Shown here piece by piece: positions 3,551-5,386 of a DNA stretch of 13,499 bases. The first letter of the stretch is position 1. Each line of letters opens with the position of its first letter. Source of the DNA: Pseudomonadota bacterium (GTDB lineage: Bacteria; Myxococcota; UBA9042; PHBI01); assembly GCA_005772945.1 (NCBI GenBank), contig SXIE01000027.1, forward strand, positions 1 to 13,499, written 5' to 3'. The position numbers were made by a program, and so were the translations under genes. The notes under the pieces are model-generated. The model ran no database searches. It worked only from the letters and a program-made list of their open reading frames with translations, and was not told the DNA's origin.

Positions 3551-5386
3551 TTGTCGCTTCGCCCTATTCCGTTCGCCGCGCTCGTCGGTCGGCTCGTCCG
3601 CGAGCTCGGGCGCGCCAACGCGGACGGGGCGGTGTTCGAGGTGCCGGTGCGCCGCGTTTATCGGGGGGTCGGGCGCGGTCCGGGCGCCGGCGCGGCGAGA
3701 CTCGATCTCAGCGTCGCGCACCATGGCGAGCGCGCGTCGAACCCGCTCGGACCGGCCGCGGGGCCGCACACGCAGCTGGCGCAGAACATCGTCGCGGCGT
3801 GGCTCGGCGGGTCGCGCATCTTCGAGTTGAAGACCGTGCAGGTGCGCGACGACCTGGTCATCCCGCGGCCGTGTATCGACATGGCGACGGTCGGCTACAA
3901 CGTCGAGTGGTCGCAGGAGTTGCGGCTCGCGGAGTCGGCGACCGAGTACGTCAAGGCCGCGATGCTGGTGGCGATGCTGCGCCACGGCGGGCTGATGGCG
4001 TTCGAGCCTGGGTCCGACGCGACGCTCTTCGATCTGAGCGTCGGCTACGATCTGGCCGGGATCCGATCGCCCACCGTGACGGCTTTTCTCGACGCGATGG
4101 CGGATGCCGGTTCGATCATCGCGGCGTTGCGGTCCGAATTGCCGATTACCTACGCCAACTTGCTTGATGTCGCATTTCCGACGCGGATCTCGGGATCGGT
4201 GACGCTCTCGACGTTCCATGGATGCCCGCCGTCGGAGATCGAGGCCATCGCGCGCTACCTCCTCGTCGAGCGCGGACTCGACGTGACGGTGAAGCTGAAC
4301 CCGACGCTGCTCGGGCAGGCGCGCGTGGCGACGGTCCTGCACGACGTCCTCGGCTATCACGACGTCCGCGTGCCGCCGCGCGCCTTCGCGCACGACCCGA
4401 GCTGGGACGAGATCCACGGGATCGTGACGCGCCTCGCCGCATGCGCCCGGGACGTCGGCCGCAGCTTCGGCATCAAGCTCACGAACACGCTGGTCGTCGA
4501 GAACCACCGGGCGTTCTTCCCGCCGAGCGAGCGCGAGATGTACCTCTCGGGACCGCCGCTGCATGTGCTCGCATGCGAGCTGGTGGCGCGCTTCCGCGAG
4601 GCCTTCGGGGCCGCGCTGCCGATCTCGTTTTCGGCCGGTATCGACCGCAAGAATTTCGCGGACGCGGTCGCGTGCGGGCTGGTGCCGGTCACCGTGTGCA
4701 GCGATCTCTTGCAGCCCGGCGGCTACGCCCGAACGCATGGCTACTTGAGCGAGCTCGCGGCGCGCATGGAGGCGGTCGGCGCGCACGATGTGCCGAGCTT
4801 CATCCAGCGCGCCTATGCCGCGGACGGAGCAGGCGACGTCGTCACAAACGCCCGGCACCACGCGGCCGTCGCCCTTGCCGATCCGCGCTACGCCGAGCCG
4901 ACGAACGCGCGCCCGCCCCGCAAGCTCGCGCGCACACTCGCGCGCTTCGATTGCACGAACTGCGACAAGTGCATCCCGGTCTGCCCGAACGTCGCGATCT
5001 TCGCGCTCGACGTCCGCCGCGACGCTGCGAGCGACGCGAGGGCAGCCGCTTCGCGGCCTGCGCGAGACGCGACACACCAAATCGGCATCTTTGCAGATGC
5101 ATGCAACGATTGCGGCAACTGCGATGTGTTTTGCCCCGAGCACGGCGGACCCAATCTCGCGAAGCCGCGCTTTCACGGCTCATACGAAGGCTACCTCGCG
5201 GCCGCACCACGCGAAGGGGTCTTCGTGCGCCGCACCGCGACCGGCTTCGAGGCCTGGGGGCGGCTCGACGGCGCCGAGCACCATGTGGTCGCGCCGAGCG
5301 ACGACTCCGCCTCGGGCCCTGCCGCCGATCTCCGCGCCCTCGCCGAGGGTGCCCTCTCGAGTCCCCAAGGACGCTGGGTGTCATGA
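3551..5386 (+). CDS. ygfK: YgfK-like oxidoreductase, compact form without the FAD/NAD(P)H domain
   Basis: The 611-residue product matches both ends of YgfK (annotated as putative selenate reductase subunit; part of anaerobic purine/urate loci). The N-terminal TIM-barrel-like part carries NPLGPAAGPHTQLAQNI (64-80), ELKTVQ (92-97), VTLSTFHGCPPSEIEAI (217-233), KLNPTLLG (248-255), IKLTNTL (308-314) and SDLLQPGGY (384-392), a dihydroorotate-dehydrogenase-like FMN fold. The C-terminus is a 2[4Fe-4S] ferredoxin domain: C468, C471, C474, C478 and C518, C521, C524, C528. E. coli YgfK has about 1,030 residues; the glutamate-synthase-like FAD/NAD(P)H module normally between these parts is absent, leaving a PreA-like layout. 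The linker between the two clusters contains an RAAASRPAR insertion encoded by a dispersed repeat. Start TTG 3551 has a strong Shine-Dalgarno. The stop overlaps the carbamate kinase start (ATGA). It is probably cytoplasmic; its electron partner is unknown. Confidence 0.85.
   Translation: MSLRPIPFAALVGRLVRELGRANADGAVFEVPVRRVYRGVGRGPGAGAARLDLSVAHHGERASNPLGPAAGPHTQLAQNIVAAWLGGSRIFELKTVQVRDDLVIPRPCIDMATVGYNVEWSQELRLAESATEYVKAAMLVAMLRHGGLMAFEPGSDATLFDLSVGYDLAGIRSPTVTAFLDAMADAGSIIAALRSELPITYANLLDVAFPTRISGSVTLSTFHGCPPSEIEAIARYLLVERGLDVTVKLNPTLLGQARVATVLHDVLGYHDVRVPPRAFAHDPSWDEIHGIVTRLAACARDVGRSFGIKLTNTLVVENHRAFFPPSEREMYLSGPPLHVLACELVARFREAFGAALPISFSAGIDRKNFADAVACGLVPVTVCSDLLQPGGYARTHGYLSELAARMEAVGAHDVPSFIQRAYAADGAGDVVTNARHHAAVALADPRYAEPTNARPPRKLARTLARFDCTNCDKCIPVCPNVAIFALDVRRDAASDARAAASRPARDATHQIGIFADACNDCGNCDVFCPEHGGPNLAKPRFHGSYEGYLAAAPREGVFVRRTATGFEAWGRLDGAEHHVVAPSDDSASGPAADLRALAEGALSSPQGRWVS
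5037..5066 (+). repeat. 30-bp quasi-palindromic repeat, copy 1, inside ygfK
   Basis: It begins CGAGGGCAGCCGCT and ends CGCGAG. It matches 13107-13136 at 28 of 30 bases; the differences are at 5051 (T versus G) and 5060 (G versus T). GCAGCCGC pairs with GCGGC-TGC around a three-base TTC loop with one bulged C, so it can fold as a hairpin. It is translated in frame as RAAASRPAR in the linker between the two ferredoxin cluster motifs of YgfK. Confidence 0.7.

Follow-up and report, generated by a model that had tools for sequence, protein, structure and literature searches.

The gene at positions 3551–5386 (plus strand) of the 13,499-nucleotide stretch of DNA analysed here (the window) encodes a 611-residue short form of YgfK, predicted from profiles, BLASTP, a tree and a structural model to be an FMN-barrel purine (yanthine) reductase with a C-terminal 2[4Fe-4S] domain. 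The reading we favour, at a probability of about 0.58, is that this short YgfK reduces yanthine (2,8-dioxopurine) with electrons delivered by ferredoxin or a different one-electron carrier. Yanthine is very probably the substrate, judging from the biochemistry of E. coli YgfK, and a one-electron carrier is the probable donor, by analogy with clostridial PydAc and UacX. The reading starts from direct observations of domain content, predicted fold, family-wide conservation, phylogeny and operon context, and of the absence of a reductase partner nearby.

The ygfK frame starts at a TTG codon (3551) with GGAGGG ahead of it, encodes its 611 residues without interruption and stops at 5384–5386. A reading made earlier from the letters alone (the sequence-only reading) had described a YgfK barrel and a C-terminal 2[4Fe-4S] domain, with about 400 residues of GltD-like sequence missing, and this description held throughout. 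BLASTP aligned residues 3–402 with residues 5–405 of E. coli YgfK (1032 residues) at 40% identity, and residues 471–534 with residues 905–954 at 34% identity. The two blocks are 69 residues apart in the window protein and 500 apart in E. coli YgfK, a difference of about 430, and the total chain is 421 residues shorter; a GltD-like FAD/NAD(P)H module of about 420–430 residues is absent. The NCBIfam model TIGR03315 matched in two stretches, the best covering profile positions 4–398 of 1012, and the total of 377.6 bits was below the curated equivalog cut-off of 835.3. Only Fer4-type families were returned by Pfam, with no match to Pyr_redox_2, Fer4_20 or DHO_dh (PF01180) at E ≤ 0.001. The barrel occupies residues 1–410 (3551–4780, plus strand) and the 2[4Fe-4S] segment, recognized by Pfam and motif inspection, extends from C468 to C528 (4952–5134, plus strand). 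Eight cysteines are of cluster type (C468, C471, C474 and C478; C518, C521, C524 and C528), and the remaining six lie in no cluster-type motif.

An AF2 model built from 77 sequences (pLDDT 93.1, pTM 0.94), which superseded an earlier one from 19 sequences (pLDDT 79), has a DHODH-like fold despite the lack of a Pfam DHO_dh match, and a short helical linker between the barrel and the FeS domain. The likeness to the layout of PreA that had been proposed, a barrel plus one 2[4Fe-4S] domain, was borne out, and the best fold match in a structure search was pig DPD. A search of the PDB by sequence gave weak matches only, of ferredoxin-domain type, and profile comparison with PreA was also weak (59% probability, E 9.1e-5), covering the last portion of the barrel together with the FeS region. 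The earlier claim that the protein needs an outside source of electrons is likewise supported.

A protein search that accepted lengths up to 1.75 times that of the query, and so admitted long forms, returned at least 7,945 proteins among 7,994 scored candidates; the best 120 of these were 459–742 residues long and included the window's own entry. The short form escapes the YgfK family model, and relatives are annotated under names such as ‘glutamate synthase’, ‘4Fe-4S dicluster domain-containing protein’ and ‘putative selenate reductase’. Its score of 378 bits, where the family model asks for 835, is part of the reason why it has been overlooked. Scanning GTDB contigs gave at least 590 rows, 536 of them encoding a relative. 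The best 80 of these loci, taken without dereplication, were all of the short form, as befits best matches to a short-form query. By their record titles, the hosts of the best 80 were mostly metagenome-assembled bacteria from lakes, groundwater, soil and sea, belonging to Myxococcota/Deltaproteobacteria, Planctomycetota, Acidobacteria, Elusimicrobia, Alpha- and Betaproteobacteria, Gemmatimonadota, Oligoflexia, SAR324, Marinimicrobia and Eisenbacteria. Named hosts of a short form include Rhodoplanes tepidamans DSM 9987, whose locus L073 has no pathway neighbour, and Telmatospirillum siberiense (P0093). In a sample of Myxococcota, 48 of 282 genomes had a YgfK match, classed by score and frame as 39 short, six long and three partial (G682, in which the contig ends inside ygfK, G761 and G771). 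Matches were found in 17 of 119 genomes in the family of G181, a long-form genome with E. coli-like gene content, with frames of 1039–1099 residues, and in 2 of 398 genomes of Pseudomonadota at large, one being the centre genome of the sample.

The barrels of 350 proteins were compared, duplicates included (for example, the window protein and its entry P0001), and one was removed by a coverage filter. The remaining 349 comprised 207 short forms (tail of 167–320 residues) and 142 long forms (tail of 623–816 residues), with none between; the set consisted of the top matches to queries of either form, a selection that intermediates could escape. A quick-search, midpoint-rooted tree of 103 barrel representatives (83 short, 20 long) showed a single change of state (SH-aLRT 99). 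The window protein belongs to a starred nine-member clade that also contains L003, P0005, P0006 and P0008, among others. This one change, and the same short build across phyla, support the earlier view that the short form has evolved as such and is not a product of decay. Uniqueness to this assembly, which would have told against that view, is excluded by homologues in many phyla, and the survey of homologues of about 600 residues and their neighbours that had been proposed delineated a separate short size class with purine-type neighbourhoods. We conclude that short YgfK is a real, widespread branch, undescribed within the openly searchable literature; no mention of it was found in the literature searched, subscription papers lying outside that search. 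To speak of a ‘missing’ module may be to assume the wrong polarity, as gain and loss both fit the midpoint-rooted tree. It is possible, at somewhat less than even odds, that short YgfK represents an old, distinct line of purine reductases supplied by carriers, perhaps the ancestral one from which NAD(P)H-dependent long YgfK arose by one GltD-like insertion, and that reductive uric acid breakdown is widespread in uncultured soil, freshwater and marine bacteria, where family models miss it.

Key barrel residues, chosen from the alignment and not from ligand mapping, are invariant or nearly so in both forms. K94, K248, N250, K309 and N312 were identical in all 207 short and all 142 long barrels, and C225 in 207 of 207 short and 141 of 142 long ones. 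D365 and C383 are kept in most short forms and vary mainly in long forms. With the same key residues in their barrels, the two forms should do the same chemistry. C671 of DPD, of which mutant structures are available, has a role in proton transfer, and by likeness to it C225 is a candidate proton donor. Both cluster motifs were strict in 201 of the 207 short forms; the other six keep all eight cysteines, with altered spacing or with CL for CP. Four betaproteobacterial proteins (L037, L048, L049 and L061) have CL in place of CP after the last cluster cysteine, and two others (L041 and L071) have one extra residue within the first cluster motif. The window protein retains the eight cluster cysteines and the key barrel residues with no break of frame, in agreement with the remark in the sequence-only reading that its motifs are intact and its frame clean.

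The operon context in the window is that of purine breakdown. The stop codon of ygfK overlaps by 4 nt the start of a carbamate kinase gene (5383–6333), whose product scored over the cut-off of one of the NCBIfam models. This is followed by genes for a YgeW-type carbamoyltransferase (6376–7524; NCBIfam 355 bits, equivalog cut-off 453), a YgeY-type M20 hydrolase (7521–9092; 199 bits, cut-off 321), a one-chain molybdenum XDH of the TIGR03311 type with 2Fe-2S and Moco domains (9111–11822; 896 bits, over the cut-off of 830) and an SsnA-type aminohydrolase (11819–13141; 259 bits, cut-off 444). All genes are on the same (plus) strand, and ygeW/ygeY and xdh/ssnA also overlap by 4 nt. For YgeW, YgeY and SsnA the equivalog models were the best match, yet the scores were under the cut-offs. 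The last frame (13171–13499, plus strand) is the start of a PLP-fold enzyme that runs past the end of the window; its 109 residues matched no Pfam family, and its assignment to a family termed PALP1, about 498 residues long in relatives, rests on L003 and other relatives. Together, the homologues of SsnA, XDH, YgeW, YgeY and carbamate kinase make up a reductive uric acid set like that characterized in E. coli (PMC12507026). HyuA and YgeX are absent from the 13.5 kb of the window, which ends inside the PLP-fold gene, and no FAD domain or FAD subunit of XDH was found within it. Upstream of ygfK, the overlapping frames 188–1342 and 1074–1979 seem, on visual inspection, to form a single secreted protein interrupted by a frameshift near 1270, 2037–2918 encodes an FkbM-type methyltransferase (by profiles) with apparently no tie to the purine cluster, and a small frame immediately upstream of ygfK (2976–3370) has a lipoprotein-like start by eye.

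Neighbourhoods were compared across 88 short-form loci, namely the best 80 GTDB contig loci (L002–L081), seven from Myxococcota (L142–L148) and the window; 41 had at least 8 kb on both sides and 47 had less than 8 kb on one side. SsnA was found in 52 loci, XDH in 49, HyuC in 29, a CN-hydrolase in 26, YgeY in 24, YgeW in 20, HyuA in 15 and carbamate kinase in 13; an XDH-type FAD subunit (7), YgeX (2) and a YgfS-like match (1) were rare. At least one of eight uric-acid-pathway families was present in 75 of the 88. Clustering of ORFs without prior queries (minimum 70 residues, E 1e-12) gave the same picture of the neighbours. Families 3, 4, 5, 6 and 10 were annotated by profiles and family 8 by eye, families in seven or fewer loci lying outside the annotation; no ferredoxin or GltD-like reductase was among the families found in at least 13 loci, one of which, an ABC transporter, was assigned by eye. 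Two PLP-fold families recur, PALP1 (about 498 residues; L003, 8807–10300) in 44 of 88 loci and PALP2 (about 431 residues; L060, 2791–4083) in 34, and may replace the diaminopropionate lyase YgeX. Downstream modules were near-exclusive, with YgeW/carbamate kinase only in 21 loci, CN-hydrolase/HyuC only in 35, both in one and neither in 31, a pattern that suggests an energy-conserving and a hydrolytic variant of the downstream pathway. One myxococcal locus (L138, 8716–17183) carries in a row a long ygfK, an ssnA-like gene and a gene for an 829-residue one-chain PreT-PreA/PydA-like protein.

The layout of the short form equals that of PreA, which needs PreT, and the sequence-only reading had accordingly offered a separate reductase as one source of electrons. 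A PreT/GltD-like NAD(P)H reductase, encoded elsewhere, might thus dock on short YgfK to give a two-part enzyme. The preT and preA genes of E. coli are adjacent. No GltD/PreT-like gene was found in any of the 88 short-form neighbourhoods, including the 41 that extend for 8 kb or more in both directions, whereas identical queries recovered the fused GltD module in all 22 long-form loci. This also bears on a GltD-like half encoded just outside the cluster, which had been named as a finding that would overturn the short-form reading; related loci gave 0 of 88, and the window's own contig was read within the 13.5 kb. GltD-like matches over 100 bits were present in 13 of 15 short-form genomes, each on a contig other than that of ygfK, and in the other two (G006 and G007) there was none. 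The 30 short-form genomes, which include G682, held 55 Fer4_20 proteins, not clearly more than the 45 of 30 other Myxococcota from the same draw for which no YgfK match was listed; at E ≤ 1e-8 none was found in 5 of 30 and 2 of 30, respectively, in genomes listed without completeness values. Pyr_redox_2 was uninformative, being present in all five genomes lacking Fer4_20 and in 14 of 14 controls. With no GltD/PreT-like neighbour in 88 loci and no such protein at all in 5 of 30 genomes, a PreT-type partner loses ground. An unlinked one would still fit these counts, and we consider it unlikely.

A 2-oxoacid:ferredoxin oxidoreductase (POR) domain, a point in favour of a one-electron carrier as donor, was present in 29 of 30 short-form Myxococcota genomes, which discriminates little because 11 of 14 control genomes have one too. 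A scan for C..C..C...C ORFs near the short form, [2Fe-2S] ferredoxins lying outside its scope, gave hits in 10 of 88 loci and nothing recurrent. The lack of a recurrent ferredoxin gene near short ygfK in the 88 loci, with the single YgfS-like match, counts against the carrier reading.

The neighbouring XDH, the third source that had been proposed, could instead oxidize another purine and hand its electrons straight to YgfK as an internal redox pair. XDH of the window type lies beside the short form in 45 of 88 loci, and in one operon with it in the window, usually without an adjacent FAD subunit. Such a subunit was within 200 bp of this XDH in only 2 of 45 loci (2 of the 31 flanked on each side by 1.2 kb of contig or more), and in both (L054 and L069) it was 60–69 bp from XDH, beside pieces of a second XDH. 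Among 15 E. coli-like long-form loci, five had a strong XdhD, and in all five YgfM was 6–11 bp away, a contrast that favours the carrier reading. In 31 of the 45 loci, however, XDH is on the opposite strand to short ygfK, and no positive evidence for it as donor emerged. Moreover, both steps from urate are reductions (PMC12507026), so that XDH would consume electrons rather than supply them. We therefore regard direct supply by XDH as distinctly unlikely.

Alternatively, the short form might share the scaffold alone with YgfK and act on another oxidized purine or a pyrimidine. Supported branches part short from long forms, and 13 of the 88 loci have none of the eight pathway families, four of these on stretches of over 20 kb. 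The identity of the key barrel residues and the SsnA and XDH neighbours argue against another substrate, which we consider very unlikely. That the gene is a deletion derivative, a decaying gene or an assembly artefact can be dismissed, given its clean frame, the retention of the eight cluster cysteines and key residues, conservation across phyla and the single change on the tree.

We thus return to short YgfK as a carrier-fed yanthine reductase. It would perform the reductive, dearomatizing step of anaerobic-type uric acid breakdown while itself having no site for NAD(P)H. Electrons of low potential would arrive one by one via a soluble carrier, most likely a ferredoxin, and pass through the C-terminal pair of [4Fe-4S] clusters to the FMN in the barrel, where yanthine would be reduced. 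The product would be opened at once by SsnA from the same operon, a coupling modelled on E. coli YgfK, and the neighbouring XDH, also without an adjacent FAD subunit, would draw on the same carrier to convert urate to yanthine. To our knowledge, there is no biochemistry of any short YgfK. Several points count against this reading: in the window, YgeW, YgeY and SsnA fall short of equivalog level, and HyuA and YgeX are outside it; among the loci, 13 of 88 lack a pathway neighbour; D365 and C383 are variable in long forms; and many short-form hosts are not obvious anaerobes. A further point against it is the XdhAC of Clostridium sporogenes, by its name without a FAD subunit, which acts in a pathway where YgfK is dependent on NAD(P)H (PMC12990295); an XDH without FAD can thus go with a YgfK that has it. 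In favour of the reading, E. coli YgfK and SsnA with NAD(P)H convert yanthine to ureidomethyl-hydantoin (PMC12507026).

Reports on the enzymes of reductive uric acid breakdown are recent (PMC12507026, PMC12990295). The former describes three solutions for the dearomatizing step, namely NAD(P)H-dependent YgfK, UacX and a putative F420 enzyme, to which short YgfK would add a fourth if our reading is true. It is also a direct test case for what feeds the FAD-less enzymes of this pathway, the electron feed of XdhAC being named as a question in PMC12990295. One metagenome survey took YgfK as a marker of selenium cycling (PMC8443593), and a second also used it as a marker gene (PMC12749492); if short forms are among the genes counted there and act on purines, the YgfK readings in those surveys would need review.

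Among known systems, E. coli PreA and pig DPD share the arrangement of barrel and C-terminal FeS domains with short YgfK, at 19% identity in that alignment. The single Fdx domain is as in PreA, and PreA works with PreT, which goes against the ferredoxin analogy. Unlike PreA, short YgfK has no PreT-like neighbour (0 of 88 loci) and lies in a purine rather than a pyrimidine cluster. Clostridial PydAc, a ferredoxin-dependent dihydropyrimidine dehydrogenase that reduces uracil, is described in PMC7332683 as having no FAD/NADPH domains, two Fdx domains and four clusters, and as using reduced ferredoxin or methyl viologen and not NAD(P)H. Short YgfK resembles it in combining an FMN barrel and FeS clusters without a FAD/NADPH domain, and differs in having one Fdx domain, with two clusters and eight cluster-type cysteines. 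UacX of Clostridioides difficile, a DHO_dh (PF01180) homologue of PydA, is reported to be a yanthine reductase without a FAD domain, encoded in a uricolytic cluster and assayed with methyl viologen, and its supply by ferredoxin is a proposal (PMC12507026). The two have the lack of a FAD domain and the uricolytic setting in common, whereas short YgfK has a barrel of the YgfK type and no DHO_dh match in Pfam. E. coli YgfK, the long form described by TIGR03315, has a barrel 40% identical to that of the window protein, the same key residues, a C-terminal 2[4Fe-4S] domain and similar pathway neighbours; where the long form alone has its GltD-like FAD/NAD(P)H module of about 430 residues, the short form has a helical linker.
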